Notes under the pieces: model-generated
What the model was told of the DNA's origin: nothing
The model's database searches: none
Seen by the model: only the letters and a program-made list of their open reading frames with translations
Position numbers and translations under genes: made by a program
Origin: Candidatus Frackibacter sp. WG13
GTDB lineage: Bacteria; Bacillota; Halanaerobiia; Halobacteroidales; Acetohalobiaceae
Direction: 5' to 3'
Assembly (NCBI RefSeq): GCF_900114655.1
Contig: NZ_FOTT01000027.1
Span: 1-45,906, forward strand
DNA: 45,906 nt
In this document: one piece after another, positions 21,009-36,236 of the stretch
Layout: each line of letters starts with the position of its first letter
Position numbering within the stretch: the first letter of the stretch is position 1

Positions 21009-21037
21009 TTGACAAAGTCTAATGTATGTTATATAAT
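21009..21037 (+). promoter_or_regulatory. sigma-A promoter of the nuo operon
   Basis: TTGACA (21009-21014), 17-nt spacer, TATAAT (21032-21037). It gives a leader of about 500 nt that contains two tandem attenuator elements before nuoK. Confidence 0.75.
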
Positions 21038-21128: not shown

Positions 21129-21252
21129 AGTCCAGCGACGAAAGAGTCCAGAGGCCATAGAGCCCAGAGGCCATTCAGAGTCCAGAGACCTTTAGAGTCC
21201 AGAGGCCAAGTAATTCGTTCCGTTTAAAGGAGTGAGTTACTTGGCCTTTTTT
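21129..21252 (+). promoter_or_regulatory. repeat-terminator leader element 1 (five units)
   Basis: Five units on the pattern AGTCCAGNGRCC (21129 to 21207) with short spacers. The GGCC of the last unit (21204-21207) begins the terminator stem GGCCAAGTAA..., whose 3' arm TTACTTGGCC ends at 21246 and is followed by TTTTTT. Earlier units also carry GGCC and could compete for that arm. Interpreted as an attenuator before the complex I operon; the trigger is unknown. Confidence 0.75.
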
Positions 21253-21327: not shown

Positions 21328-21452
21328 AGTCCAGCGACGATGGAGCCCAGAGGCCTTTAGAGCCCAGAGGCCATTCAGAGTCCAGAGACCTTAGAGTCCA
21401 GAGGCCAAGTAATTTGTTCTTTTTTAAGAGAACGGATTGCTTGGCCTTTTCT
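21328..21452 (+). promoter_or_regulatory. repeat-terminator leader element 2 (five units)
   Basis: A second copy about 75 nt after the first, again with five units. The terminator stem is GGCCAAGTAATTTGTTCT (21403 onwards) paired to AGAGAAC-GATTGCTTGGCC (to 21446), followed by TTTTC. The unit part is nearly identical to element 1, while the stem and loop interior differ. It is the last element before nuoK. Confidence 0.75.
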
Positions 21453-21545: not shown

Positions 21546-21848
21546 ATGGTTACTTTAAATCATTACTTACTATTAGCAGCAGCTTTGTTCTGTATTGGCT
21601 TATTTGGAGCATTATCTAAGCGTAATGCTATAGCTGTATTGATGTCAATTGAATTAATGTTAAATGCTGTTAATATTAACTTGGTAGCATTTTCACATTT
21701 TCTCGCTGATACAGTGGGGCAGGTATTTGCAATCTTCGTTATTGCTGTTGCAGCTGCAGAGATAACTGTTGGAATAGCAATGGTTATTGCTATCTATCGC
21801 AACCGCTTTTCAGTTAACGTCAATGAGTTTAATCTATTGAAATGGTAA
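21546..21848 (+). CDS. nuoK: complex I subunit NuoK
   Basis: 100 residues, three membrane helices, normal length. The family motifs [28 protein letters not shown] are all present, including the two membrane Glu (about 36 in IELM and 70 in AAAEI) that belong to the proton path. It is the first gene of the operon rather than the eighth, as explained under NuoL. GGGAGG precedes the ATG. Confidence 0.95.
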
Positions 21849-21879
21849 TTAATAAAGTTAGAGAGGGGTGACCCTGTTA

Positions 21880-23808
21880 ATGGTAGAATATGCTTGGTTG
21901 ATTCCGGTATTGCCACTGTTTTCTTTTTTAATCATCGTTTTATTTGGGCGATACCTTAAAAATGACAGTGATAAGATTGGGATAGGATCTTTATTTATCT
22001 CGTTCTTATTAGCCATTGGAGTATTATTAGAAGTAATCAATGGATCTACTATAACAAAAGAATTTGTCTGGGCAACACATGGAGATATTGAAATTGCTTT
22101 TGGTTATAGTGTAGATGCATTGACTGCCATGATGTTTGTGGTAGTTACATTCGTAAGTTTGATGGTACATGTATACTCTAAAGGCTATATGGAAGGAGAT
22201 AGTAGATACAAACGTTTTTACGCTTGTTTATCATTATTTACTGCGTCAATGTTAGGTTTAGTAATTGCTAATAATTTACTTTTACTCTTTATCTGTTGGG
22301 AATTAGTAGGATTATGTTCTTACCTATTAATTGGTCATTGGTTTGAGGATATTGAAAATGTTTTGGCAGCAAATAAAGCCTTTTTAACTACTCGTGTTGG
22401 AGATATTGGAATGTTAATAGGTGTAATTATGATCTTCGCCATGGGTAAGACCTTTAATTTTGCTGAGTTAACGCATCTTGTTGAACATGGAGAAATTGCA
22501 GGGGTGGGTTTAACTGTAGCAACAATATTTCTTTTTGTTGGTGCTATAGGTAAATCAGCTCAGTTTCCACTACATGTTTGGCTACCTGATGCTATGGCTG
22601 GTCCGACACCGGTGAGTGCTTTAATTCACGCTGCTACTATGGTAGTAGCTGGAGTTTATTTAGTAGCAAGAATGTTCTTAATCTTTGCTGCGGCTAAGAC
22701 TACATTAACAGTAGTAGCATTTATTGGTGGCTTTACAGCTATCTTTGCTGCAAGTATAGCTTTAGTAGAAGAGGATATAAAAGGGGTCTTGGCTTACTCA
22801 ACGATCAGTCAGTTAGGTTATATGGTTTTGGCTTTAGGAGTAGGAGCTTATACAGCTGGAGTATTTCATCTTATGACTCATGCTTTCTTCAAAGCACTAT
22901 TATTCTTAGCTTCTGGTAGTGTAATCCATGCAGTGCATACCCAGAATATGCATAAGATGGGTGGTTTATTAAAGAAAATGAAGGTTACAGGTTGGACTTG
23001 GATTATAGGTTCGGCTGCCTTAGCTGGAGTACCACCTTTTAGTGGATTCTGGAGTAAGGATGAAATTCTATTAGGCGCTTATCATTCCGATTATAAAATT
23101 CTATTTTGGATTGGAGTTATTGCAGCTTTCTTTACAGCCTTCTACATTACTAGAGCAACAATTATGACTTTCTTTGGAGAACCTAGAGATGATCATGCTT
23201 ATGAACATGCACATGAATCACCATCAGTTATGACTATTCCATTAATTCTTTTAGCTATATTAGCATTTGGATCTGGATTTGTGAATTCTCCATTGACAGA
23301 TATGGCATTTGGAAAGTTTATAGCTCTTGAACATGGTCACCATGCTTCACCAAGTAGTTTTGTCCAGATGACAGCAGTTGGAGCGACGCTATCAGGAATT
23401 ATTTTAGGTTGGCTTATCTATGGACTTAGGATCATTTCACGGAAGTCAATTATTAAGTTCCTATATCCGGTTTGGCGCTTATTAAAAGGAAAATACTTTA
23501 TCGATGAAATTTACAATGTAGTTGCTATTAGAGGTTCTTTAGCTTTATCCAAATTAATTGGTGCGTTTGATAAGTATGTAGTAGATGGAATAGTTAATTT
23601 AACTGGTAGGCTAGGCGTCTTTATAGGTGATTTAATAGGTGACTTTGATAACAAGGTGGTTGATGGTGCAGTCAATGGTGTCAGAAATACTTTCTATGTT
23701 GGAAGTAGGTTAATAAGGAATGCACATACTGGTTATTTACAGTCATATGCTTTAACATTATTTTTCTCTGTGCTAATTGGTTTAATTATTATAGTGATAG
23801 GAGGATAA
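21880..23808 (+). CDS. nuoL: complex I subunit NuoL (proton pump)
   Basis: About 642 residues, the largest antiporter-like subunit, with around 16 membrane helices and the long C-terminal lateral helix region (after about 480). Motifs LLFICWELVGLCSYLLIGHW (with the key Glu) and FPLHVWLPDAMAGPTPVSAL are canonical. A GTG at 21868 is in frame, but GAGAGGGGTGA serves the ATG at 21880. In most bacteria nuoL follows nuoK at the operon end; here K-L-M-N come first and A-B-C-D-H-I-J follow. Confidence 0.95.
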   Translation: MVEYAWLIPVLPLFSFLIIVLFGRYLKNDSDKIGIGSLFISFLLAIGVLLEVINGSTITKEFVWATHGDIEIAFGYSVDALTAMMFVVVTFVSLMVHVYSKGYMEGDSRYKRFYACLSLFTASMLGLVIANNLLLLFICWELVGLCSYLLIGHWFEDIENVLAANKAFLTTRVGDIGMLIGVIMIFAMGKTFNFAELTHLVEHGEIAGVGLTVATIFLFVGAIGKSAQFPLHVWLPDAMAGPTPVSALIHAATMVVAGVYLVARMFLIFAAAKTTLTVVAFIGGFTAIFAASIALVEEDIKGVLAYSTISQLGYMVLALGVGAYTAGVFHLMTHAFFKALLFLASGSVIHAVHTQNMHKMGGLLKKMKVTGWTWIIGSAALAGVPPFSGFWSKDEILLGAYHSDYKILFWIGVIAAFFTAFYITRATIMTFFGEPRDDHAYEHAHESPSVMTIPLILLAILAFGSGFVNSPLTDMAFGKFIALEHGHHASPSSFVQMTAVGATLSGIILGWLIYGLRIISRKSIIKFLYPVWRLLKGKYFIDEIYNVVAIRGSLALSKLIGAFDKYVVDGIVNLTGRLGVFIGDLIGDFDNKVVDGAVNGVRNTFYVGSRLIRNAHTGYLQSYALTLFFSVLIGLIIIVIGG

Positions 23809-23812
23809 GATT

Positions 23813-25273
23813 ATGTTATCTACATTAGTATTTGTTCCTTTAATTGGAGCGATTATCACTATGTTCTTGCCAAAAGAAGAAGATAGGATAATTAAGATAT
23901 TTGCTCTGTTAGTAAGTTTAATTCCTATTGTATTGGTAGGAATGATGTGGTTAGATTTTGATATGGCTGCTGCAGGAATGCAGTTTGTTGAAAAAGCAGA
24001 ATGGATTCCAAGTTTAGGGGTTACTTATCATTTAGGAGTTGATGGGATCAGTTTTCCTTTGTTAGTCATTAGTGCTTTAATTACTACTATGGCAATCATT
24101 ACATCCTGGAATATAGACCATCGAGTAAAAGACTTCTTTGCTTTTGTTCTTTTGTTAGAAACTGGTCTATTAGGATTGTTTGTTGCTCTTGATTATGTAT
24201 TATTCTATATCTTCTGGGAGATTGTTCTGGTTCCTATGTATTTCTTGATAGGAATTTGGGGTGGACCTAGAAGACGTTATGCTTCAATTAAGTTCTTCAT
24301 CTATACCTTGTTAGGTAGTGTAGTGATGCTAGTTGGTATTTTGGCTCTATACTTTGGGAGTGGGTTACAGACATTCGATATATTAACTATTGCCCAACAG
24401 GCTAATCTATCTCCAACCTTCCAATGGTGGTTGTTCTTGGCTTTCTTCTTAGGATTTGCAGTCAAGGTACCAGTCTTCCCGTTTCACACTTGGTTACCTG
24501 ATGCTCACGTGGAAGCGCCAACTGGCGGTAGTATGTTACTAGCTGGTGTATTATTAAAGATGGGGGCTTATGGGTTCTATAGAATTTCATATACTACTTT
24601 TCCGGATGCTGCACAATCTTTCGCTTTATTCATGGGAGTCTTAGGAGTTGTTAATATTATTTACGGTGCATTAGCTGCTATGGCTCAAGAGGATGTTAAG
24701 AAGATGGCTGCTTATTCAAGTATTAGTCATATGGGCTTTGTGTTGGTTGGTTTAGCAGCAATGACTCCGATGTCAATGAATGGTGGATTATATGTTCTCT
24801 TTTCACACGGATTGATTTCACCACTAATGTTCTTCTTTGTAGGTAGTGTCTTTTATGATAGAACTCATACACGAATGATGGGAGAATTAGGAGGCTTATA
24901 TACTAAGATTCCATTAGCAGCTGGTTTACTTGCTTTTACCGCTTTTGCTAATCTAGGTCTACCAGGGTTATCTGGATTTATTGGTGAGTTCTTCACCTTT
25001 GCTGGTACTTGGACTGAGTTGCCTAATTTAGTAATGATTGCGGTAGTTGGTTTAGTATTCACTGCGGCTTATCATTTGCGGATGATGCAAAAAGTATTAA
25101 TGGGTGATGCGCCTGCTAAGTACGATGGACTACCGGATATTAGTGCTCGGGAATTATGGGTAGCAATTCCATTAATGTTACTTATCATTTGGGCTGGCAT
25201 CTATCCCAATACTTTATTATCATTCTTTAATCCATCAGTAGAGTCAATCTTAGCAGTACTAGGAGTGATGTAA
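23813..25273 (+). CDS. nuoM: complex I subunit NuoM (proton pump)
   Basis: 486 residues with about 14 helices. Signature FYIFWEIVLVPMYFLIGIWGG carries the conserved Glu, and FPFHTWLPDAHVEAPTGGSMLLAGVLLKMG is complete, including the Lys of the middle channel. AGGAGG lies 8 nt before the ATG and the gap to nuoL is only 4 nt. Confidence 0.95.
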   Translation: MLSTLVFVPLIGAIITMFLPKEEDRIIKIFALLVSLIPIVLVGMMWLDFDMAAAGMQFVEKAEWIPSLGVTYHLGVDGISFPLLVISALITTMAIITSWNIDHRVKDFFAFVLLLETGLLGLFVALDYVLFYIFWEIVLVPMYFLIGIWGGPRRRYASIKFFIYTLLGSVVMLVGILALYFGSGLQTFDILTIAQQANLSPTFQWWLFLAFFLGFAVKVPVFPFHTWLPDAHVEAPTGGSMLLAGVLLKMGAYGFYRISYTTFPDAAQSFALFMGVLGVVNIIYGALAAMAQEDVKKMAAYSSISHMGFVLVGLAAMTPMSMNGGLYVLFSHGLISPLMFFFVGSVFYDRTHTRMMGELGGLYTKIPLAAGLLAFTAFANLGLPGLSGFIGEFFTFAGTWTELPNLVMIAVVGLVFTAAYHLRMMQKVLMGDAPAKYDGLPDISARELWVAIPLMLLIIWAGIYPNTLLSFFNPSVESILAVLGVM

Positions 25274-25274
25274 T

Positions 25275-26717
25275 ATGAATGTTGGAATCTTTACTCCAGA
25301 AATAGTGATGGTTATTACACTAATAGTTATTTTAGGTGTTAAGTATCTGGCTAAGAATCAATTTACAGTGGGATTAACAGCAGTAGTGGGCTTGATAACT
25401 GCTGGAGTTTCATTAGCTTATCTAACTGATGACTTAGGCATGATATGGGGACACTCATTTGTTGTAGATAGTTATTCTATCTTCTTTAAAGCTTTATTAA
25501 TAGGTGTTGCTGTGGTAGTAAGTGTCATCTCATTTAAGTATGTAGAGGAGAAGAAGATAAAGCCTGGTGAATTCTATAGTTTATTAGTTGCTTCGACATT
25601 AGGTATGTTAGTGATGGTTTCGTCTTATAGTTTAGTTTCAATCTATATAGGATTGGAGTTAATGTCAATTTCGGCTTATATTCTTATCGGTATGTTACAG
25701 GAGGATAAGCGTTCAACTGAAGCAGCATTAAAGTACTTATTAATTGGAGCATTAACTTCAGCATTATTACTCTTTGGAGTTTCTCTACTTTATGGAGTGA
25801 CTGGTACTACCAATTTAATTCAGATTGCTGAAGTAGTAAGCTCTGGCCAAGGTGCTTTAACAGCTACAGCTGCTTCTATGACTCCACTTTTGATGATGGG
25901 AGTAGTCTTCGTTTTAGCCGGTTTTGGGTTTAAAGTAGCAGCTGTACCATTCCATATGTGGGCACCTGATACTTATGAAGGAGCACCGACTTCGATTACT
26001 GCTTTTTTGATCACTGGTTCTGAAGCGGCAGCATTTGCAGCATTGTTAAGAGTGTTTAATGTAGGACTTAGTGAATTGGCAGAAACTTGGTCACTATTGA
26101 TTGCGATTTTAGCTCTGCTTTCAATGACTTTAGGTAATATTGGTGCTTTAACTCAGACCAATGTTAAGCGAATGATGGCTTATTCAGCTATTGCTCAGGC
26201 AGGTTATGTGTTAGTAGGGGTTGCTGTTGCTACTCAAAGTGGAATCTTCCCGGTACTTTACTATCTGTTAGCTTATGCATTTATGACTCTAGGTTGTTTT
26301 GCAGTCATAATCTTGCTTAGTAATAACTTCGATAGTGAAGAGTTAGATGACTTTAGAGGATTGAGTGAGAAGGCACCAATGTTTGCTGCGGCAATGACTC
26401 TATTCTTTTTATCATTAGTTGGAATTCCACCAACAGGAGGATTTTTAGGTAAATTCTTTATCTTTAAAGCAGCGATAGGGAGTAACTATCTATGGTTAGC
26501 CTTAGCAATGGCAATTAATAGTGTTATCTCTTTACCTTACTACTATGGTGTAGTAAAGAATATGTACCTTGAAAGCCCAACTAATAATATGAAACTGACT
26601 ATACCATCAGAATTAAAATTTGTAGTCGGATTTTCAGCAATAGCGATTTTAGGATTGGGCATTATTCCTGAAAAGTTTATTAACCTAATTCAATTAGCAG
26701 CTAACTTTGTCTTCTAA
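25275..26717 (+). CDS. nuoN: complex I subunit NuoN (proton pump)
   Basis: 480 residues with about 14 helices. Conserved motifs are SIYIGLELMSISAYILIG (Glu) and VAAVPFHMWAPDTYEGAPTSITAFL. It starts one nt after the nuoM stop, so it is coupled. The three antiporter subunits give the usual proton-pumping capacity. Confidence 0.95.
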   Translation: MNVGIFTPEIVMVITLIVILGVKYLAKNQFTVGLTAVVGLITAGVSLAYLTDDLGMIWGHSFVVDSYSIFFKALLIGVAVVVSVISFKYVEEKKIKPGEFYSLLVASTLGMLVMVSSYSLVSIYIGLELMSISAYILIGMLQEDKRSTEAALKYLLIGALTSALLLFGVSLLYGVTGTTNLIQIAEVVSSGQGALTATAASMTPLLMMGVVFVLAGFGFKVAAVPFHMWAPDTYEGAPTSITAFLITGSEAAAFAALLRVFNVGLSELAETWSLLIAILALLSMTLGNIGALTQTNVKRMMAYSAIAQAGYVLVGVAVATQSGIFPVLYYLLAYAFMTLGCFAVIILLSNNFDSEELDDFRGLSEKAPMFAAAMTLFFLSLVGIPPTGGFLGKFFIFKAAIGSNYLWLALAMAINSVISLPYYYGVVKNMYLESPTNNMKLTIPSELKFVVGFSAIAILGLGIIPEKFINLIQLAANFVF

Positions 26718-26753
26718 ACTAATATGAAATAAAAGTATTTAGGAGGTGCTCAA

Positions 26754-27107
26754 ATGTATGAGTTTAATGGGATTGTAATATTCTTTATTCTGGGTCTATT
26801 AATGCCTATTGGTGCTTTGATTGGAGCTTATATCTTAGCGCCTACAAAGTCATCCCCACAAAAATATTTAACGTATGAATGTGGTCTAGATACCAGAGGA
26901 GAAACTTGGGTTCAGTTTAAGATCTGTTACTTTCTATATGCATTAGTCTTTTTAGTCTTCGATGTAGAAACGATATTTTTATACCCATGGGCTGTTACTT
27001 TTCAACAGCTAGGAACATTTGCTTTTGTTGAAATGTTTATCTTTATTGCAATATTGATAATAGGCTTTGTTTATGCCTGGAAGGAAGGTGCGTTAGAATG
27101 GTTTTAG
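26754..27107 (+). CDS. nuoA: complex I subunit NuoA
   Basis: 117 residues, three helices. [32 protein letters not shown] is the family core, including the Cys loop near the quinone site. AGGAGGTG precedes the ATG. This is where a normal nuo operon would begin. The end overlaps nuoB by 10 nt. Confidence 0.95.
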
Positions 27108-27607
27108 ATGAAAAGAATAGGAGTAGAGTTTCTCTACTCCATGAAATTTTAGATAAAGATAATGTAAAGAATAATATAGTTTTAACTACTGTTGATAAGG
27201 CACTTAATTGGGCACGAGGTAATTCAATTTGGCCTTTGACTTTTGGGTTAGCTTGTTGTGCAATTGAGATGATGGCAACAGCTGCTTCACGGCATGATTT
27301 AGCCCGGTTTGGTTATGAGGTATTTCGAGCCTCACCTCGGCAAGCTGATTTAATGATTATCGCCGGTACCATTACTAAGAAGATGGAGCCGGCTGTGCTA
27401 AGAGTTTACGAGCAGATGCCAGAACCTAAATATGTATTAGCTATGGGCAGTTGTGCTATTAGTGGAGGACCATTTGCTGAATCATATAATGTGGTAAATG
27501 GTGGAGATGAATTCTTACCAGTAGATGTATATGTTCCTGGTTGTCCGCCACGACCTGAAGCGTTGATCTATGGAATTTTGGAATTGAGACGAAAAATTCA
27601 ATCATAA
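27098..27607 (+). CDS. nuoB: complex I subunit NuoB (N2 cluster)
   Basis: 169 residues. It holds the terminal N2 [4Fe-4S] cluster next to the quinone site. Ligand Cys are visible in [12 protein letters not shown] (the adjacent pair), [10 protein letters not shown] and [14 protein letters not shown]. Short N-terminal helix before the domain. Overlap with nuoA implies translational coupling. Confidence 0.96.
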
Positions 27608-27619
27608 AGGAGGGTCAAG

Positions 27620-28021
27620 ATGAAGCCAAGTGTAATCAAGAATCAAATTGAAGATGGAAGTATTAATATAGAGGCTGATAGGTTATATAAGACAATGAAA
27701 ATTTTAAAGACAGCATCAGAATTTAATTACGAGTATTTAATTAACCTTACAGCTGTAGATTATCAAGAATACCTAGAAGTAGTATATCATCTATTTTCAT
27801 TACAAACTGGTGATCGCTTAGAAGTTAAAGTTGAAGTAGACCCTCAAGAACCTGAGGTTCCATCAGTAATGGATATCTGGGGGTCAGCTGATTGGCAGGA
27901 GCGTGAAGTTTATGATATGTTTGGGATAACTTTTAGTTGTCATCCTAACTTAAAACGAATCTTACTAACGGATAATTTTGAAGGATATCCTTTGCGTAAG
28001 GATTTTAAATTAAGTACTTAA
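27620..28021 (+). CDS. nuoC: complex I subunit NuoC
   Basis: 133 residues, near the short end for the family. The C-terminal signature [25 protein letters not shown] and GYPLRKDF is intact. Peripheral arm subunit beside NuoD; not fused to it, unlike in E. coli. AAAGGAGGG precedes the ATG. Confidence 0.93.
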
Positions 28022-28057
28022 ATTTAAACTAAGATAATAAGAAATGAGGTGTAAAAG

Positions 28058-29176
28058 ATGAAAGAGGTTGTTGACCAAGGGATTAAAACGCAAGAAATAG
28101 AGGTTAACTTTGGTCCTCATCATCCTAGTACTCATGGTGTTTTTCGAATGGTTTTAACTCTTGATGGTGAGAATGTTCGTAAAGTTAATCCTCATGTTGG
28201 TTATTTACATCGAGGTATTGAAAAGTTAGCAGAGAAGCGAACTTATGCACAATGTGTACCTTTTACTGATCGTCTAGATTATATCTGTTCTATGACCAAT
28301 AATTTAGCTTATGTGCAGACAGTTGAACAGCTATTAGATTTAGAAGTGCCAACACGGGCTGAATATATTAGAGTGATAGTTTCTGAATTACAAAGAATAA
28401 TTAATCATTGTGTTTTTTGGGCGACTTTTGGTAATGACTTAGGTTCACAAACGGCTTTAATGTATGGCTTTAGAGACCGAGAGATGATTCTAGATGTATT
28501 TGAAGAGTTAACAGGCTCACGAATGACTTACAGTTATATGCGGATTGGAGGTGTAGCTAAAGATATCTCCGATGAACAGTTGAAGGAGATAGAAAGAATA
28601 GTAGATTATATGCTAGATGAAGCACTGCCAGAATATCATAATTTGATCACTGGTAATGAAATATTCCAAGCACGGACTAAAGATATTGGAATACTCAAAC
28701 CAGAAACAGCGATTGATTATGGAGTAACAGGTCCTAACCTTCGAGCTAGTGGAGTAGAATATGATGTACGTAAAGACCAGTCATATGGGATTTATGATAA
28801 GTTTGATTTTGATGTACCTACAAGAGATAAAGGAGATACATATAGCAGATATATAGTCCGCTTAGAGGAAATAGAACAGAGCTGTTTAATTATTAAGCAA
28901 GCGTTAAATATGATACCAGAAGGTAAAGTCCAAGTTAAGAGAGTACCAAAGCGGCCACCAGATGGATCTACTTACAGTAGTATTGAGTCACCAAAAGGTG
29001 AGTTAGGCTTCTACTTAGTAAGTGATGGCTCCAAGAGACCATATCGTTTTCGAGTACGTCCTCCGACCTTTATTCACTTGATGGCACTAGAAGAGATGAT
29101 GATTGGTGAAAAAGTTGCAGATGCTATTGTTATCTTAGGTAGTATTGATATTGTTTTAGGCGAGGTAGATAGGTAA
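28058..29176 (+). CDS. nuoD: complex I subunit NuoD (quinone site)
   Basis: 372 residues. FGPHHPSTHGVFRM at the N-terminus provides the His of the quinone headgroup site, and the Tyr in KRTYAQCVPFTDRLDYICSM follows. The C-terminal SPKGELGFYLVSDG and RPPTFIHL motifs are intact. The nickel-ligand Cys of related hydrogenases are absent, so this is complex I and not an Ech-type hydrogenase. Confidence 0.95.
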   Translation: MKEVVDQGIKTQEIEVNFGPHHPSTHGVFRMVLTLDGENVRKVNPHVGYLHRGIEKLAEKRTYAQCVPFTDRLDYICSMTNNLAYVQTVEQLLDLEVPTRAEYIRVIVSELQRIINHCVFWATFGNDLGSQTALMYGFRDREMILDVFEELTGSRMTYSYMRIGGVAKDISDEQLKEIERIVDYMLDEALPEYHNLITGNEIFQARTKDIGILKPETAIDYGVTGPNLRASGVEYDVRKDQSYGIYDKFDFDVPTRDKGDTYSRYIVRLEEIEQSCLIIKQALNMIPEGKVQVKRVPKRPPDGSTYSSIESPKGELGFYLVSDGSKRPYRFRVRPPTFIHLMALEEMMIGEKVADAIVILGSIDIVLGEVDR

Positions 29177-29220
29177 AGAATTATTACTAAAACTAATTTT
29201 AATTAGAGGAGACGATTCAT

Positions 29221-30252
29221 ATGGGTGCTTTACAGAATTTATTTGTTAACCTAGCTCTATTTTTTCGCGAGAGTATGGTCAATATAGGTTTTTCACAACT
29301 TGGCATTGAGGCAACTATGGATCTTGTAGCAGGGATAGGAGTTTTAGCTGTAATCGCTATTTCAGCATTGGTTTTGATCTATGTTGAACGAAAAGTTGCC
29401 GGTTTTATTCAAGTAAGATTAGGACCTAATCGAGTAGGACCAAAAGGTACGTGTCAGACTGTAGCTGACGCTTTAAAATTAGTTGGAAAAGAGGATATTA
29501 TACCAGATAGAGTTGATAAAGTACCATTTATGATAGCACCTATTCTATTTTTTGCTCCAGCAGTTTTGGCTTTTGCTATTATTCCTTTTGGAGAAAATAT
29601 GATTCCTATAGATATGAATATTGGGATTTTCTATTTCATCGCTGTCTGTTCTTTAAGTACTATTCCTATAATCATGGCTGGATGGAGTTCGAATAATAAG
29701 TATTCGTTGTTAGGAGCAATGCGAAGTTTAGCTCAGTCATTAAGCTATGAAATTCCACTAGTATTTTCGATTCTAGGGGTAGTAATGATTACAGGTTCTT
29801 TGCAGATGAGTGATATTGTTGCTGCTCAATCGGATATGTGGTTTATCGTAACACAACCGATAGCGTTTTTGATATATCTTATTGCTGGAGCAGCTGAGAC
29901 TAATCGACCACCTTTTGATTTACCTGAAGGTGAATCGGAATTAGTTGCTGGGTATATGACAGAGTATAGTGGAATGAGATGGGCTCTCTTCTTCTTAGCT
30001 GAATATGCACACCTGTTTATAGTTTCAGCTATGGCTACTACTTTATTCTTAGGTGGGTGGCATGGACCTATCTTACCATCTTACATTTGGTTCTTATTAA
30101 AGACAGGGTTTATGATCTTTATCTTAATTTGGGTAAGATGGACTTTTCCACGGATCAGAATAGACCAACTATTAAGTTTAGGTTGGAAGTTTTTACTACC
30201 ACTTTCGTTATTAAATATATTAATAACTGGAGTTGTACTTTATATTATCTAA
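29221..30252 (+). CDS. nuoH: complex I subunit NuoH
   Basis: 343 residues with eight helices. [23 protein letters not shown] and [27 protein letters not shown] are the conserved loops that link the quinone cavity to the proton path. It follows NuoD directly, with no NuoE, NuoF or NuoG gene between. GAGGAG precedes the ATG. Confidence 0.96.
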
Positions 30253-30266
30253 GTGGGGGTGATTAG

Positions 30267-30686
30267 ATGTATGGGCAAGGATTGTTAAAAGGGTTAGCTA
30301 CTACTCTAAAAGAGTACTTTGGAGGTTATACTACGCAGGAATATCCAGATGAATATCCTAATCTACCGGATACTTTCCATGGTTCATTTGAATTAGACGT
30401 AGATAAGTGTGTTGGCTGTACAGTATGTGATAGAAATTGTCCTAACTCAGTAATTGATTTAAAGATAAATCGTGGTGAAGATAAGAAGAAAGAGATTGTT
30501 AGATTTAAAGTTGATTTAACAAGGTGTCAGTTCTGTGGATTATGCACAGAAGGATGTCCAACAAATGCTTTGAAATTTAATCAAGAATTTGAATTAGCTA
30601 CTTATAATAAAGAGGATTTAATATTGAACTTATTAGCTGAGAAACCAACTCAAACAAAACCAAAGAAGAAAAAAGAAGTCAGTTAA
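30267..30686 (+). CDS. nuoI: complex I subunit NuoI (two [4Fe-4S])
   Basis: 139 residues with CVGCTVCDRNCPNS and CQFCGLCTEGCPTNA, the N6a/N6b cluster motifs. The C-terminus is a Lys-rich tail. Without NuoEFG, this subunit is the likely docking site for an external donor such as a ferredoxin, as proposed for 11-subunit complexes. GGGGGTGAT precedes the ATG. Confidence 0.94.
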   Translation: MYGQGLLKGLATTLKEYFGGYTTQEYPDEYPNLPDTFHGSFELDVDKCVGCTVCDRNCPNSVIDLKINRGEDKKKEIVRFKVDLTRCQFCGLCTEGCPTNALKFNQEFELATYNKEDLILNLLAEKPTQTKPKKKKEVS

Positions 30687-30711
30687 CTAATATAGGCTGG
30701 AGGTGAAATGA

Positions 30712-31209
30712 ATGGGATTAGAGGCTATAAGCTTCTTGGTTTTAGCGATTATTACCTTAAGTTCGGCTTTAGCATTAGTATTATCAAGAAATATAGTTCA
30801 TAGTGCCTTGTTTTTAATTCTCAGTTTTGTTGGGGTGGCTGGATTATATCTTTTAATGCAGGCTAATTTTTTAGCTGCGGTTCAAATATTAGTATATGGT
30901 GGAGCGATTGCTATAATTTTAGTCTTTGGAGTTATGTTAACTCAAAGAGAAGATATGTCTAGTACTAACCTGTTTAATAAACAGAAAGGATTAGCTCTTT
31001 TAGTTGCTTCAGTATTATTAATGGTTATTAGTAGGGTTATTTGGCTGACTAAGTGGGGAAGCATTACTACGATTAAGACTACTGTTCATAATATAGCTAC
31101 TGTAATGTTACAGCAGTATGTGCTTCCGTTTGAGATAGTAGCTATATTGTTATTAGTAGCAATGATTGGTGCTATAGTTCTAGCTAAAAAGGTAGAGAAA
31201 GCAAGCTAA
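30712..31209 (+). CDS. nuoJ: complex I subunit NuoJ
   Basis: 165 residues with five helices; the third carries AVQILVYGGAIAIILVFGVML, the pi-bulge helix of the family. It is the last nuo gene; NuoK is at the other end of the operon. Leader element 3 lies 26 nt after its stop and would end or throttle the transcript. Confidence 0.93.
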   Translation: MGLEAISFLVLAIITLSSALALVLSRNIVHSALFLILSFVGVAGLYLLMQANFLAAVQILVYGGAIAIILVFGVMLTQREDMSSTNLFNKQKGLALLVASVLLMVISRVIWLTKWGSITTIKTTVHNIATVMLQQYVLPFEIVAILLLVAMIGAIVLAKKVEKAS

Positions 31210-31235: not shown

Positions 31236-31330
31236 AGTCCAGCGACAAGCAGAGTCCAGAGACCATGAGTCCGGAGGCCAGAATTTTATCAAGAGAGTTC
31301 TTGATAAAGTTCTGGCCTTAATTTATTTTA
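31236..31330 (+). promoter_or_regulatory. repeat-terminator leader element 3 (three units)
   Basis: Units AGTCCAGCGAC, AGTCCAGAGACC and AGTCCGGAGGCC, then the stem GGCCAGAAtTTTATCAAGA (from 31276) paired with TCTTGATAAAGTTCTGGCC (to 31317). The downstream tract is T-rich but interrupted. It stands between nuoJ and the radical SAM gene. Confidence 0.7.
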
Positions 31331-31353
31331 AAAAAATATATGAGGTGATAAAA

Positions 31354-33060
31354 ATGTCAAAAGTAGATTTAGTTTTGTTGCATCCACCAAGTGTGTATGA
31401 CTTTAGAAAGAAATCGATTTTTTACGGCCCGGTTAGTGATTTAATTCCTTCTTCACCAGTATTTGAAATGTATCCATTGGGATTTTTAACAATCCAGAGT
31501 TATTTAGAAGAACAAGGTTATAAAGTAAGAATCGTTAATTTAGCTGTAAGAATGATGAAAGATGAGAATTTTGATGCACGAGAGTTTATTTCTAAATTGG
31601 ATCCTAAAGCTTTTGGAATTGATCTACATTGGTTGCCACATGCACATGGCTCCTTAGAAGTGGCAAAGATAGTTAAGGAAGAGCATCCTGATACTCCAGT
31701 TATCTTTGGTGGACTTTCATCGACTTATTTTCATGAAGAGCTAGTAGATTATCAACAGGTTGACTATGTACTACGAGGTGACTGTACCGAGGTTCCGTTC
31801 TTAAAGCTTTTGAAGAATATTGAAAATAATAATACTGATAAAGATTCTTTAGAGAAAGTACCTAACTTAACTTGGCAAGATGAAGAACAAACTATTATAA
31901 ATAAACTAGATTTTAATCCGGATAGTTTAGATTATGTTGATTTAAGACCGGAGATTATGATCAAAAATGTATTTAGATATCATGATTTAGAAAGTATACT
32001 ACCATTTGATGGTTGGTTAAACAATCCAATTACAACAGTATTTTCAGTGAAGGGTTGTAAGCAAGGGTGTATTACATGTGGGCGTTCAGTGTGCACTAAT
32101 GAGCACTATAACAAACGCCAAGGTCCGATATTTAGAAGTCCGGCTAGTATGGTAAAGAATATGAAAAAGATTGCTCAGTTCTCTCGCGGGCCAATCTTCA
32201 TTGTAGGTGATATTAGGCAGGCAGGAGGTGGCTATGTGAGTGAATTTCTCAATAGGTTAAATAAGGCAAATCTTAAGAATGAGATTGTATTTGAGTTATT
32301 TAGTCCAGCTTCCGGAAAGTTCTTAAAGAAGATAGATGAATCAGTACAAAATTGGAGCTTAGAGCTTTCTCCTGAAAGCCATAGTGAAGTTGTAAGAAAG
32401 GCACAAGATAGAACTATCTTTTATACTAATGAAGAGATGGAAAGAACATTGGATATAGCTACTGAATTAGGTTGTAATCGTATTGATGTTTTCTTCATGA
32501 TTGGGTTACCTAGACAGACTCCAAAATCAGTACAAGAGACAATTGATTATTGTGAGTATCTGTTTGAGAAGTATGATGAAAGATTATCATGTTTTATTTC
32601 ACCAATGGGGCCGTTCTTAGACCCTGGTAGCTTAGCTTTCGAGCATCCAGAAAAGATGGGTTATAAGAAGTTGGCGCATACATTAGATGACCATAGAAAG
32701 CAATTGACTAATTCTTCGTGGGAAGAAATTCTAAGTTATGAGACAGATTGGATGACACGAAAAGAGATTGTAGAGCAGACCTATTCAGCAGCAGAAAGGT
32801 TAAATAAGTTGAAACATAAATACGACAGAATTGATGACCAGACTAATGAGAATATCACTAACCGAATTAGTCAGGCTAAGAAGTTAAAAGAGCTTCTTGA
32901 AAAGAAAGATGAAGAGTTAGACTTTGTAGAACATTTAAAACTAAGAGGTGAGATTGACAAGTATAGTATCTCTACTGTTTGTGATAAGACAGAGTTAGAT
33001 TGGCCAGTTAAATTTATAAAGTTTAAGTTATCAGGAATCTTTAAGATGTTATTAGCTTGA
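31354..33060 (+). CDS. B12-binding radical SAM protein (TIGR04190-like)
   Basis: About 568 residues. The N-terminal part (about 1-150) resembles a cobalamin-binding Rossmann domain but lacks a clear DxHxxG, so base-off B12 binding is not certain. The radical SAM cluster motif is CKQGCITCG (CX3CX2C, about residue 230), with a GDIRQAGGG region after it. The C-terminal 90 residues form a charged helical tail. Overall layout recalls the Ta0216/TIGR04190 family, function unknown. GAGGTGAT serves the ATG at 31354. It follows element 3. Confidence 0.8.
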   Translation: MSKVDLVLLHPPSVYDFRKKSIFYGPVSDLIPSSPVFEMYPLGFLTIQSYLEEQGYKVRIVNLAVRMMKDENFDAREFISKLDPKAFGIDLHWLPHAHGSLEVAKIVKEEHPDTPVIFGGLSSTYFHEELVDYQQVDYVLRGDCTEVPFLKLLKNIENNNTDKDSLEKVPNLTWQDEEQTIINKLDFNPDSLDYVDLRPEIMIKNVFRYHDLESILPFDGWLNNPITTVFSVKGCKQGCITCGRSVCTNEHYNKRQGPIFRSPASMVKNMKKIAQFSRGPIFIVGDIRQAGGGYVSEFLNRLNKANLKNEIVFELFSPASGKFLKKIDESVQNWSLELSPESHSEVVRKAQDRTIFYTNEEMERTLDIATELGCNRIDVFFMIGLPRQTPKSVQETIDYCEYLFEKYDERLSCFISPMGPFLDPGSLAFEHPEKMGYKKLAHTLDDHRKQLTNSSWEEILSYETDWMTRKEIVEQTYSAAERLNKLKHKYDRIDDQTNENITNRISQAKKLKELLEKKDEELDFVEHLKLRGEIDKYSISTVCDKTELDWPVKFIKFKLSGIFKMLLA

Positions 33061-33373: not shown

Positions 33374-33547
33374 ATGAAAGATGTAAGATGTGCCTGTGAT
33401 AAGTTGGTGTCTAAGATTGAAGAAGACAAGATCATTATTAAGTGTAGGCATTGTAAAAGGTTTGTGGTGATTCAGGATCGTCAGATTACAAGAGTTGAAT
33501 ATAAGAATTATAGACAAAGTTCAGAGACAAGAGTCCAGAGACTTTAA
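33374..33547 (+). CDS. Com-like zinc-ribbon miniprotein 1
   Basis: 57 residues with two Cys pairs, RCACDK (CxC) and KCRHCKR (CxxC), joined by a short basic beta-rich stretch. From memory the pattern resembles phage Mu Com (RCxxCxKLL...IxIRCPRCKR), an mRNA-binding zinc-finger regulator. GGGAGG precedes the ATG. Its last ten codons run into repeat element 4, so the terminator element overlaps its own 3' end. It is a paralogue of the gene at 33976. The role as an RNA-binding regulator is hypothesis. Confidence 0.75.
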   Translation: MKDVRCACDKLVSKIEEDKIIIKCRHCKRFVVIQDRQITRVEYKNYRQSSETRVQRL

Positions 33548-33592
33548 GTCCAGAGGCCAGCGTTGTGTAGTTTACAATGCTGGCTCTTTTAT
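33518..33592 (+). promoter_or_regulatory. repeat-terminator leader element 4 (three units)
   Basis: Units AGTTCAGAGAC, AGTCCAGAGAC and AGTCCAGAGGCC, then the stem GGCCAGCGTTGTG (33555 onwards) paired with TACAATGCTGGC and followed by TCTTTT. The first two units overlap the end of the zinc-ribbon gene. Confidence 0.72.
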
Positions 33593-33633
33593 ATTTAAAA
33601 TGAAATATTAAGATTATGCTCATGATTAATTTG

Positions 33634-33702
33634 AGTCCAGAGACTTTAAGTCCAGAGGCCAGCATCACAGAAGTATTGTTGTGATGTTGGCCTCTATTTT
33701 TA
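33634..33702 (+). promoter_or_regulatory. repeat-terminator leader element 5 (two units)
   Basis: AGTCCAGAGAC, AGTCCAGAGGCC, then GGCCAGCATCACA (33657 onwards) paired with TGTGATGTTGGCC, followed by TCTATTTTTATTT. It sits 40 nt after element 4 and before the small membrane-protein gene. Confidence 0.72.
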
Positions 33703-33737
33703 TTTAATCCAATTTTATTAGAAAGGGGGGATTAACA

Positions 33738-33932
33738 ATGACATTCATCCTAGCAGTTAGCGCATTATTGATAGTGTTGTTTAGTTTTGGAACAGGTTGG
33801 TTATTAGTTGATGAAACGTTTGATATTCAGCACAAAGTCTTAAAAGGAGTTACTTTTGTTCTCTTAAGCGGAGTATTACTAGCATTAACTTCAGTGCTTT
33901 ATACGATGGTTATTTGGCCAACTAATTTTTAA
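33738..33932 (+). CDS. small two-helix membrane protein
   Basis: 64 residues with two predicted membrane helices (about 2-24 and 36-59) and a short polar loop VDETFDIQHK between. I do not recognise a family. AAAGGGGGG precedes the ATG. Its position between repeat elements 5 and 6 and next to two zinc-ribbon genes, the seven-haem cytochrome and cytochrome b-like genes suggests it belongs to the same respiratory region, possibly as a small subunit; that is inference. Confidence 0.7.
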   Translation: MTFILAVSALLIVLFSFGTGWLLVDETFDIQHKVLKGVTFVLLSGVLLALTSVLYTMVIWPTNF

Positions 33933-33975
33933 AAGTAATTGATTAGTCAGAACTTATAGTAAAGGAGGTGGAGGT

Positions 33976-34128
33976 GTGGAGGCAGATGCCATAGATGATT
34001 ATTTAAGGTGTAAGTGTGGAAAGATTGTTTGTGAGATAGTAGAGGATAAGGTGATTATTAAGTGTAGACACTGCAAACGATTTGTAGTTATTGAAGCCGA
34101 ACAGGTAAAGACGATTGAGTATAATTGA
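33976..34128 (+). CDS. Com-like zinc-ribbon miniprotein 2
   Basis: 50 residues with CKCGKIVC and IIKCRHCKRFVVI; the second half is identical to that of the 33374 product over about 12 residues (IIKCRHCKRFVV). Four Cys in two CxxC/CxC knuckles should bind one zinc. GTG start behind AAAGGAGGTGGAG. The pair are clear paralogues. Resemblance to phage Mu Com is from memory. It ends 18 nt before repeat element 6, so it too lies beside an element. Confidence 0.75.
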   Translation: MEADAIDDYLRCKCGKIVCEIVEDKVIIKCRHCKRFVVIEAEQVKTIEYN

Positions 34129-34145: not shown

Positions 34146-34206
34146 AGTCCAGAGACGTTAAGTCCAGAGACCAGTGCTATTAATTTAGCTGGTCTCTATT
34201 TTTATT
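34146..34206 (+). promoter_or_regulatory. repeat-terminator leader element 6 (two units)
   Basis: AGTCCAGAGAC and AGTCCAGAGACC; the terminator stem AGACCAG (34168-34174) pairs with CTGGTCT (to 34195) and is followed by CTATTTTTA. Here the unit reads GACC instead of GGCC and the 3' arm changes to GGTC, a compensatory change. It stands before the seven-haem cytochrome gene. Confidence 0.72.
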
Positions 34207-34239
34207 TTTTATTTATTGAAAGGGGTGAAAAATTTAAAA

Positions 34240-35118
34240 ATGAATATAAGAAAAGGATTATATTTAATATTGATGCTGAGTTTATTATTTGTCTTTAATG
34301 GTGTGCTTTTAGCCCAGGATAATATTCCTGCTGCTAATAAATCATGTTTGACTTGTCATCAACGAGAAGGGTTTAGCACTAAGCATGACGGCAAAGAGAT
34401 ATCATTAACTGTTGACCCAGCTGTACTAGCAGATTCGGTTCATAAGAATAATCCATGTACTACTTGCCACATGAATATTCAAGGTTTTCCGCATCAAGAT
34501 GTAGTTTATGGTCAAGAGTTAACAGTACAGGTGACTAAGAGTTGTCAGATGTGTCATGCTAATGTAGCTAAGGATTATAAAGCAAGTAAACACTGGAAGG
34601 CAACAAAAAATGGTATGGCTGATGTAAGCTGTAATGCGTGTCATGGTGAGCATAATGTGCAGAAACTAGAACTAACTAAACAAGAGGAAGTTAAAATGTG
34701 TACTCAATGCCATCAAGGAGCTATTTTAGAAGGTTATAAGCAGAGTTTTCATGGTAAAGCAGTATTATTAGGCAGTCAAGAATCAGCCAGTTGTGTAGAC
34801 TGCCATGGCGCCCATAAGGCATTAGGGGATGAAGTAGCTGCCTCACCAGTCTCAGCCAAGAACAAACCAGCTACTTGCGCTAAGTGTCATCAGGATGCGC
34901 AAGCAAATTTTGCTAAAGGAAGTGAACACTTAACTTTATCAGCAAAAGATAAGAATAAGATTCCATATTACATTAGTAAAGCGTATATATGGTTGATTAT
35001 CTTAACTATTGGGTTTATGTTAGTTCATATCTTAATTGAGTTATTTGGTAAGTTTAGAAAGGCTAAGAAAGATGATATTACGATAGATGTAGATGATTCA
35101 GATATAGATCTTAATTAA
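34240..35118 (+). CDS. seven-haem c-type cytochrome with C-terminal membrane anchor
   Basis: About 292 residues. A signal peptide (about 5-25, ending LLAQD) is followed by seven CXXCH motifs: CLTCH, CTTCH, CQMCH, CNACH, CTQCH, CVDCH and CAKCH. A single helix at about residues 250-272 anchors it, leaving an acidic tail in the cytoplasm. The next gene encodes a cytochrome b-like protein, so the two probably form a quinol-oxidising electron-transfer module. ATG at 34240 behind AAAGGGGTGA. No terminal reductase is in the window. Confidence 0.9.
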   Translation: MNIRKGLYLILMLSLLFVFNGVLLAQDNIPAANKSCLTCHQREGFSTKHDGKEISLTVDPAVLADSVHKNNPCTTCHMNIQGFPHQDVVYGQELTVQVTKSCQMCHANVAKDYKASKHWKATKNGMADVSCNACHGEHNVQKLELTKQEEVKMCTQCHQGAILEGYKQSFHGKAVLLGSQESASCVDCHGAHKALGDEVAASPVSAKNKPATCAKCHQDAQANFAKGSEHLTLSAKDKNKIPYYISKAYIWLIILTIGFMLVHILIELFGKFRKAKKDDITIDVDDSDIDLN

Positions 35119-35134: not shown

Positions 35135-35986
35135 ATGCTAATGGAAGAAAGAATATCATTCTCTGAAGAACGCGGTCTGATGTTTCAACGACTCACATTG
35201 AATCAGCGGATTCAACACTTTGTTAACTTCTTAACTTTCACTACTTGTGTAATAACCGGACTACCAATTAAGTATCATGGAGCAGCTTTATCTGCTAAGA
35301 TAGTTTCATTATTTGGTGGGTTTGATACAATGTTCTATACACATGTAGTTAGCGGTATATTGATGTTATTAGCGTTTAGTTATCACTTTGTTTACTTAGC
35401 AGCATATGCATACTTAAACGAACCTTCATTTGCGATTCTACCAAAGTGGAAGGATGCAGTAGAGATAGTACAAACGATAAAGTATAATTTGGGATTGACA
35501 GATGAGCATCCAGAATACGGTAGATACTGTTATAAAGAGAAGATGGAATATTTAGCATTAATTTGGGGTACAGTGGTTATGGGTTTGTCTGGTTTAATGA
35601 TGTATTTCCCACAGATAACAGTTAAGTTTGTACCCCGTTGGGTAATCGAAGCATTTAGAGCAGCTCATAGTGGTGAGGCGGTACTAGCAGCATTAGCAAT
35701 CGTTGTTTGGCATATGTATAATGCTCATTTAAGTCCAGACTTCTTTCCAATGAATAAGACTTGGATTACAGGGAAGGTAAGTAAGACGCAGATGGAACAT
35801 GAACATCCAGAGGAATTAAGAGAGATTATGGATGAGATCGATTATAAGGAAGAATTGAAAACAGATGTTGAAGACTCTAAAAGCTTTAAATTTGCTAATA
35901 GCAGAGGGTTAATAGGAGTAGAAATAGCACTTTATGCAGTATTTTTAGTCTGGTTATTAAAGACATTTGTTCCGTTAGGATTTTAG
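35135..35986 (+). CDS. cytochrome b-like (formate dehydrogenase gamma type) membrane subunit
   Basis: 283 residues with about five helices. LNQRIQHFVNFLTF, YTHVVSGILML, SYHFVYL, AAHSGEAVLAALAIVVWHMYNAHL carry the His residues expected of di-haem b subunits. It should take or give electrons to the quinone pool and serve the preceding seven-haem cytochrome. Two ATGs (35135, 35141) follow AAGGAGGG; either could be used. The spacing of 16 nt to the previous stop supports an operon. Confidence 0.85.
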   Translation: MLMEERISFSEERGLMFQRLTLNQRIQHFVNFLTFTTCVITGLPIKYHGAALSAKIVSLFGGFDTMFYTHVVSGILMLLAFSYHFVYLAAYAYLNEPSFAILPKWKDAVEIVQTIKYNLGLTDEHPEYGRYCYKEKMEYLALIWGTVVMGLSGLMMYFPQITVKFVPRWVIEAFRAAHSGEAVLAALAIVVWHMYNAHLSPDFFPMNKTWITGKVSKTQMEHEHPEELREIMDEIDYKEELKTDVEDSKSFKFANSRGLIGVEIALYAVFLVWLLKTFVPLGF

Positions 35987-36074
35987 CTTGCAAATTTTAG
36001 AATAATTATCTTCCTTTTAAGAAAGAATATTAATAAGTAATTTTAAAAATTCATTCTAAAGAAGGAGGATGATT

Positions 36075-36236
36075 ATGAGTTCATTTAAGTGTAGTGATTG
36101 CGGCACTGAATTCTCAGCTCCATTATGTTGTGGTGAGGAGATGGCTAGTGCTGGCAGTAACTATGTTTGCGAAAACTGTGGTAAAGTAATGGATGAGGTA
36201 GAAGCTAGTGTTACCGATGTGAACTGTTGCGAATAA
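36075..36236 (+). CDS. small zinc-ribbon/rubredoxin-like protein
   Basis: 53 residues with nine-Cys-class content: CSDCG, CC, CENCG and a terminal CC. Two CxxCG knuckles would bind one zinc or iron; the extra vicinal Cys pairs (LCCGEEM and NCCE) are unusual. GAAGGAGG precedes the ATG. The gene is alone between the cytochrome b-like gene and a terminator. I do not recognise a named family. Confidence 0.75.
   Translation: MSSFKCSDCGTEFSAPLCCGEEMASAGSNYVCENCGKVMDEVEASVTDVNCCE

Follow-up and report, generated by a model that had tools for sequence, protein, structure and literature searches.

Regulation of transcription by a protein that decides between a terminator and an alternative RNA state is known from several bacterial systems, among them the RAT elements of BglG/SacY and TRAP, the latter of which uses short repeated RNA units. 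Com proteins are, to our knowledge, known so far only from phage DNA-modification operons. Studies of one phage Com by SELEX, gel shifts and SHAPE showed that it binds CC(N)2-3GAG when this lies in a hairpin loop whose closing pair is invariably C-G; the GA and the first loop C were protected, and the protein acts as an activator (PMC6483171). In ANTAR regulation (EutV/NasR) the RNA carries two small hairpins, the second of which shares bases with a terminator, and the protein stabilises the hairpins to give read-through (PMC3369931). The window analysed here, a stretch of 45,906 nucleotides from Candidatus Frackibacter sp. WG13, carries two genes for Com-like proteins, com1 and com2, and six arrays of a short repeated unit, E1 to E6, dispersed among respiratory genes (Table 1). 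It is probable that the Com-like proteins bind the units and thereby antiterminate the respiratory gene cluster and their own operon; the binding and the direction of the effect are inferred.

Table 1. Location of the elements, the com genes and neighbouring features in the window.
Feature	Coordinates	Strand	Remarks
Promoter-like TTGACA-17-TATAAT	21009..21037	+	12 of 12; consensus match only; just upstream of E1
Element E1	21130..21248	+	five units (21130, 21146, 21162, 21180, 21197); terminator 21202-21248; before complex I operon
Element E2	21329..21448	+	five units (21329, 21345, 21362, 21380, 21396); terminator 21401-21448; in series with E1; before complex I operon
Complex I operon nuoK-L-M-N-A-B-C-D-H-I-J	21546..31209	+	read from translations; downstream of E1 and E2
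Element E3	31237..31319	+	three units (31237, 31254, 31269); terminator 31274-31319; before B12 radical SAM gene
B12-binding radical SAM protein (TIGR04190)	31345..33060	+	downstream of E3
com1	33374..33547	+	57-aa Com-like C-x-C...CRHC protein; ATG start; stop codon between units of E4
Element E4	33519..33587	+	units 33519 (weak), 33533, 33548; terminator 33552-33587, beginning inside last unit; between com1 and membrane miniprotein gene
Element E5	33635..33695	+	units 33635 and 33650; terminator 33654-33695; between com1 and membrane miniprotein gene
64-aa membrane miniprotein	33738..33932	+	between E5 and com2; kept in L020 (15728-15925, 64-65 aa)
com2	33976..34128	+	50-aa Com-like paralogue of com1; GTG start; AAAGGAGGT ribosome-binding site
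Element E6	34147..34197	+	units 34147 and 34162; terminator 34166-34197; between com2 and multihaem cytochrome gene
Multihaem c-type cytochrome	34216..35118	+	downstream of E6
b-type cytochrome, formate dehydrogenase gamma-like	35135..35986	+	

The repeated unit is 10 nt long (G-Y-Y-C-R-G-M-G-R-C) and recurs at a spacing of 14–19 nt in arrays of two to five, in the form AGUC-CAGA-GRC or AGUC-CGGA-GAC with a core of GUC-CAGA-GRC. Matches to it number 24 in the window against an expectation of 5.0 ± 2.3, a count reached in none of 100 shuffles, and all 12 matches to a strict two-unit pattern lie on the plus strand in this cluster, with none elsewhere in the 2.77 Mb genome and none for the reversed control pattern in the same genome. 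A covariance model built from the elements recovered the same six at 51–65 bits with nothing else above noise; no score in control genomes without Com exceeded 27 bits. A riboswitch or other known RNA was ruled out by the absence of Rfam matches, both at the elements of the window and in four Firmicutes loci. Similarly, simple DNA repeats or a mobile element were ruled out by the common terminator architecture, the location on one strand relative to the genes and the conservation across phyla.

Each of the six elements runs into an intrinsic terminator that takes its 5' arm from the closing bases of the last unit (AGAGRCC). Over all loci collected, 80 of the 83 arrays with two strict units run into a terminator, as compared to 8.7% with shuffled downstream sequence. 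The terminator helix covaries, seven of its eight pairs varying on both sides (58 both-sided cells, 0 of 500 shuffles as high). Because bases of the last unit are needed for the terminator as well, the two folds are mutually exclusive, and the elements are probably terminator/antiterminator attenuators, which the first-pass annotation had missed. Covariation was also tried as support for the canonical unit stems and was uninformative because these stems, 98% complementary, are nearly invariant; the hairpin predicted for the unit is supported by analogy and by a diverged class of elements.

The diverged elements accompany one of two classes of Com-like proteins. Proteins of the CGK class occur with canonical elements, and no canonical element was found in genomes with the CKK class only. 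Genes of the CKK class are flanked by two-hairpin terminators that keep an AGUC...GACU stem (variants AGUC/GGCU, AGCU/GGCU and AGCC/GGCU) and have loops such as GUUA, AAGA, AGGA and AAAA. Of 36 terminators next to CKK genes, some of them duplicate entries, 25 have a 4-bp hairpin that competes with the terminator, as compared to 15% after shuffling. It is this retention of the stems and of the competing hairpin that supports the unit hairpin. It also suggests, by inference, that each class of Com-like protein reads its loop specifically.

The first-pass annotation had placed two small Com-like zinc-ribbon proteins with a common string next to elements 4–6, and had the coding end of the first run into element 4. 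Each of these points was borne out. Both open reading frames were found with the lengths and positions given in Table 1, their ribosome-binding sites being good as judged by eye; IIKCRHCKRFVV is common to the two products, which are paralogous (63% identity over 40 aa, E 9e-18); E4 and E5 follow com1 and E6 follows com2; and the com1 stop codon (33545-33547) lies inside E4. Another genus of the family (L020, from genome G050) also has com1 followed by com2, separated by the same elements and with the com1 stop codon again between two E4 units, and this conservation indicates that they are real genes. At the equivalent place to the 64-aa membrane miniprotein, similar small membrane open reading frames were seen in Thermincola and Acetocimmeria loci.

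The resemblance to Com, likewise claimed before, was found to be real but incomplete. Four cysteines (C6, C8, C24, C27) together with R25, H26, K28 and R29 are invariant among 21 aligned relatives. Their layout is C-x-C ... C-x-x-C as opposed to the two C-x-x-C knuckles of Mu Com; every one of the 21 Com-like proteins has C-x-C as its first pair, where the phage Coms have C-x-x-C. Comparison with Com family profiles, proposed at the outset as a check, left the proteins below the cut-off of Pfam PF10122 (best E 0.045, 13.6 bits vs 22.9, only three of 21 members matching at all). On the other hand the gpCom family (PHROG 13819) was the top PHROG for 18 of the 21 members (best E 1.1e-5), and hhalign of the 21-protein profile against six phage Coms gave a probability of 96.5 (E 7e-10). 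At the level of sequence, this confirms the com1 and com2 products as distant homologues of phage Com. The AlphaFold model of the com1 product has three strands at a pLDDT of 71; no fold is claimed for it as Foldseek found nothing in the PDB below E 0.3, and the nearest PDB sequences were at chance level only.

The unit itself resembles the selected target of phage Com. It reads CC(N)1GAG in a 4-nt loop with C-G closure, which is conserved in about 80 elements, with a spacer of 1 nt as compared to 2–3 nt for the phage target; the chance of finding CC(N)1-3GAG in a random 14-nt motif was estimated at about 2%. The end of a Moraxella phage com gene, GUCCCAAGAGAC, has the same stem as the unit and a longer loop. 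A phage origin of the com genes of the window was considered and rejected: a tblastn search of 50,697 phage records gave no match to them, no element was found in viral contigs, and only two related viral proteins were found among the viral sequences compared. On two viral contigs (L139 around 1193, L140 around 420) a short Com-like protein (C-x-C; KCECGK...YCKRCK) is followed by GAGCCAAAGAGCC, possibly a phage version of the protein–element pair.

The neighbours of the com genes in the window are respiratory genes, with no mom or other DNA-modification gene, whereas phage com genes stand before mom or a methyltransferase gene. The complex I operon looks like an acquired respiratory island as no close nuoK was found in six other genomes of the order, and Com-negative members of the family lack one; nuoE, nuoF and nuoG are absent from the cluster. 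Directly 3' of the cytochrome b gene lies a gene for a 55-aa zinc-ribbon protein (36069-36236), which is TiaS-like (above the Pfam cut-off) and not Com-like.

The element is present in many anaerobic Firmicutes, and its occurrence follows that of Com-like genes. Among 59 genomes of the class of the window, it was found only in the window's genome and in G050, and clear Com-like proteins were likewise found only in these two, with one further weak match (E 0.004). When about 85,000 species genomes (GTDB) were scanned with a DNA pattern of the element alone, 20 stretches were obtained, nine of which, including those from Carboxydocella, Thermincola, Acetocimmeria and HGW-Firmicutes-14, have Com-like genes beside the elements; the element usually lies 0–7 nt past the com stop. 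At least seven others were chance matches in GC-rich simple repeats without terminators, and a remote match in G187 (2961357), also without a terminator, is probably due to chance. Of 397 genomes from the phylum of the Thermincola genome G063, 43 have Com-like proteins, accepted at E ≤ 1e-3, and 25 have the element: the two occur together in 23, the element alone in two, Com alone in 20 and neither in 352. Com-like genes thus occur in 23 of 25 element-bearing and in 20 of 372 element-free genomes (Fisher p 2e-23, independence being overstated because the genomes are related). Without the genomes reached via the pattern itself, all 16 element genomes are Com-positive (p 8e-19, kinship ignored). 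Part of this co-occurrence reflects linkage and shared ancestry, as Com-like genes, elements and cytochrome genes are often found in one cluster.

Co-occurrence across genomes was a check that the first-pass annotation had named, and these counts agree with it. Genomes with many elements and no Com-like gene were to count against the idea, and here a limit remains: G069, G072 and G074 carry two to three elements apiece, and a search relaxed to E 10 gave no Com-like protein in any of them. All three are MAGs, in which a missing com gene cannot be told from true absence.

The location of the elements relative to com genes is also conserved. An array was found within 400 nt downstream of 29 of the 63 distinct com genes, and in 23 of these 29 the first unit lies no more than 20 nt from the stop codon, mostly 1–7 nt; several stop codons touch or enter a unit, as does that of com1 in the window. 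In six Com-positive genomes (G071, G073, G168, G201, G231 and G280) an element on another contig precedes a gene for a Mg-chelatase-like AAA+ protein, and the same arrangement is found in G074. The remaining loci examined for this gene family, 20 of them from Com-negative genomes, have no element. Genes for Mrp-like ATPases (identity by eye) follow an element in G063. Elements unlinked to com in Com-positive genomes imply that the regulator can act in trans, although there are no binding data. Two further contexts were seen: in G072 (L135 6649-6746) and G074 (L136 5984-6097) an MFS-like transporter gene lies behind tandem elements, and in G079 a canonical element with its terminator lies, unexpectedly, just 3' of ftsZ and 5' of a sporulation-type gene (L127 6091-6114).

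A mechanism may be proposed in which each unit forms a tiny hairpin and the 3' half of the last unit doubles as the 5' arm of the terminator. By default the long terminator hairpin would prevail and transcription would stop. A Com-like protein binding the units as they emerge would keep the last unit in its own fold, so that the terminator is blocked and read-through follows; the additional units further upstream would favour loading of the protein ahead of terminator synthesis. The targets would be the complex I operon for E1 and E2, the radical SAM gene for E3, and for E4–E6 the com1-membrane protein-com2-cytochrome operon, including com2 itself, which would give positive feedback. Default termination with Com-dependent antitermination is the simplest reading in view of the mutual exclusion of the folds, the homology to an activator and the parallel with the dual hairpins of ANTAR systems. 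Its direction is not shown and rests only on that mutual exclusion, and binding and cooperativity are inferred as well. The same holds for any metal or redox signal through the cysteines; such sensing is plausible given the cysteines and the respiratory context. The original interpretation of the com products as RNA-binding proteins regulating their own transcript is thus supported, short of binding and transcription data.

The same arrangement could be read in the opposite direction, with the Com-like proteins binding the units as repressors that promote termination, or prevent read-through, and negatively autoregulate their own operon. An element directly behind a com gene fits autorepression too, and the tandem terminators of E1 with E2 and of E4 with E5 would shut off tightly. 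However, a protein holding the unit hairpin should prevent a terminator made of the same bases, the terminators are already strong unaided, and phage Com activates (PMC6483171), so that repression is considered unlikely. It is also conceivable that another factor, a protein or a ligand, reads the units and that the Com-like proteins are zinc or redox accessories of the cytochrome system which co-occur with the elements by operon linkage. The com genes do sit in cytochrome clusters, and the three MAGs have elements without a detectable Com-like gene. This is quite unlikely considering the homology of the Com-like proteins to phage Com, an established RNA binder with a selected target similar to the unit, the finding of unlinked elements in none of the genomes compared other than Com-positive ones and G074, and the few nucleotides that separate elements from com stop codons.

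The closeness of these stop codons, which lie at or inside arrays (33545-33547 in the window), would also be expected if the com open reading frames were cysteine-rich leader peptides and a ribosome at the com stop decided the fate of the adjacent terminator. Such ribosome-controlled attenuation is very improbable as a general explanation, as E1–E3, E5 and the unlinked elements have no overlapping com frame and a leader peptide would not need the degree of protein conservation seen across phyla, but a ribosome effect may still modulate elements of the E4 type.

If Com-dependent antitermination is correct, members of the Com family would also work in cells, antiterminating genes of energy metabolism, and a new protein–RNA pair would join the short list of protein-dependent attenuators. 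It would provide a handle on the regulation of multihaem cytochrome clusters in anaerobic Firmicutes and, with proteins of about 50 aa and sites of about 12 nt, the pair could serve as a compact genetic switch. It is tempting to speculate further, though this is no more than a tentative possibility, that a diversified cellular Com family with several members per genome, each class reading its own loop (CRGA for CGK; GUUA, AAGA, AGGA, AAAA and others for CKK) in otherwise identical two-hairpin terminator switches, represents naturally evolved orthogonal protein–RNA antitermination pairs that wire anaerobic respiratory chains. Open-access papers, to which the search was confined, gave no description of the element or of a Com-type attenuator for respiratory operons. 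Protein-dependent attenuation as such is known; what appears new is the pairing of tandem mini-hairpin attenuators with Com proteins of a cellular family.

Compared with known systems, the locus shares with phage Mu Com a small N-terminal Cys4 zinc module with the pattern RC..C.KL...IKC.RCK and a site that falls at the com 3' end, ahead of the following gene, which in Mu is mom; the unit, with its binding inferred, would also correspond to the CC-Nx-GAG target in a short C-G-closed hairpin loop. It differs in that phage Com lifts a translation block of a DNA-modification gene, whereas the sites here belong to terminator attenuators, which stand before respiratory genes and often occur in tandem and in trans, and in that the proteins are cellular, present as up to five paralogues per genome and set apart by the C-x-C first knuckle, the 1-nt spacer of the target and a score below the Pfam cut-off. 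With the ANTAR systems (EutV/NasR) it has in common two small hairpins, the second of which overlaps an intrinsic terminator, as seen in the 80 of 83 arrays given above. The regulator is however a Com-like zinc ribbon, with no match to the ANTAR domain for either protein in Pfam, NCBIfam and PHROG scans, the loops are of the 4-nt CRGA type instead of the conserved ANTAR terminal loops, and arrays extend to five units. The likeness to BglG/SacY and TRAP lies in the proposed protein-dependent choice between the terminator and an alternative RNA state and, for TRAP, in the short repeated RNA units, whereas the locus described here has no PTS domain or TRAP ring and its unit is a separate mini-hairpin about every 16 nt.
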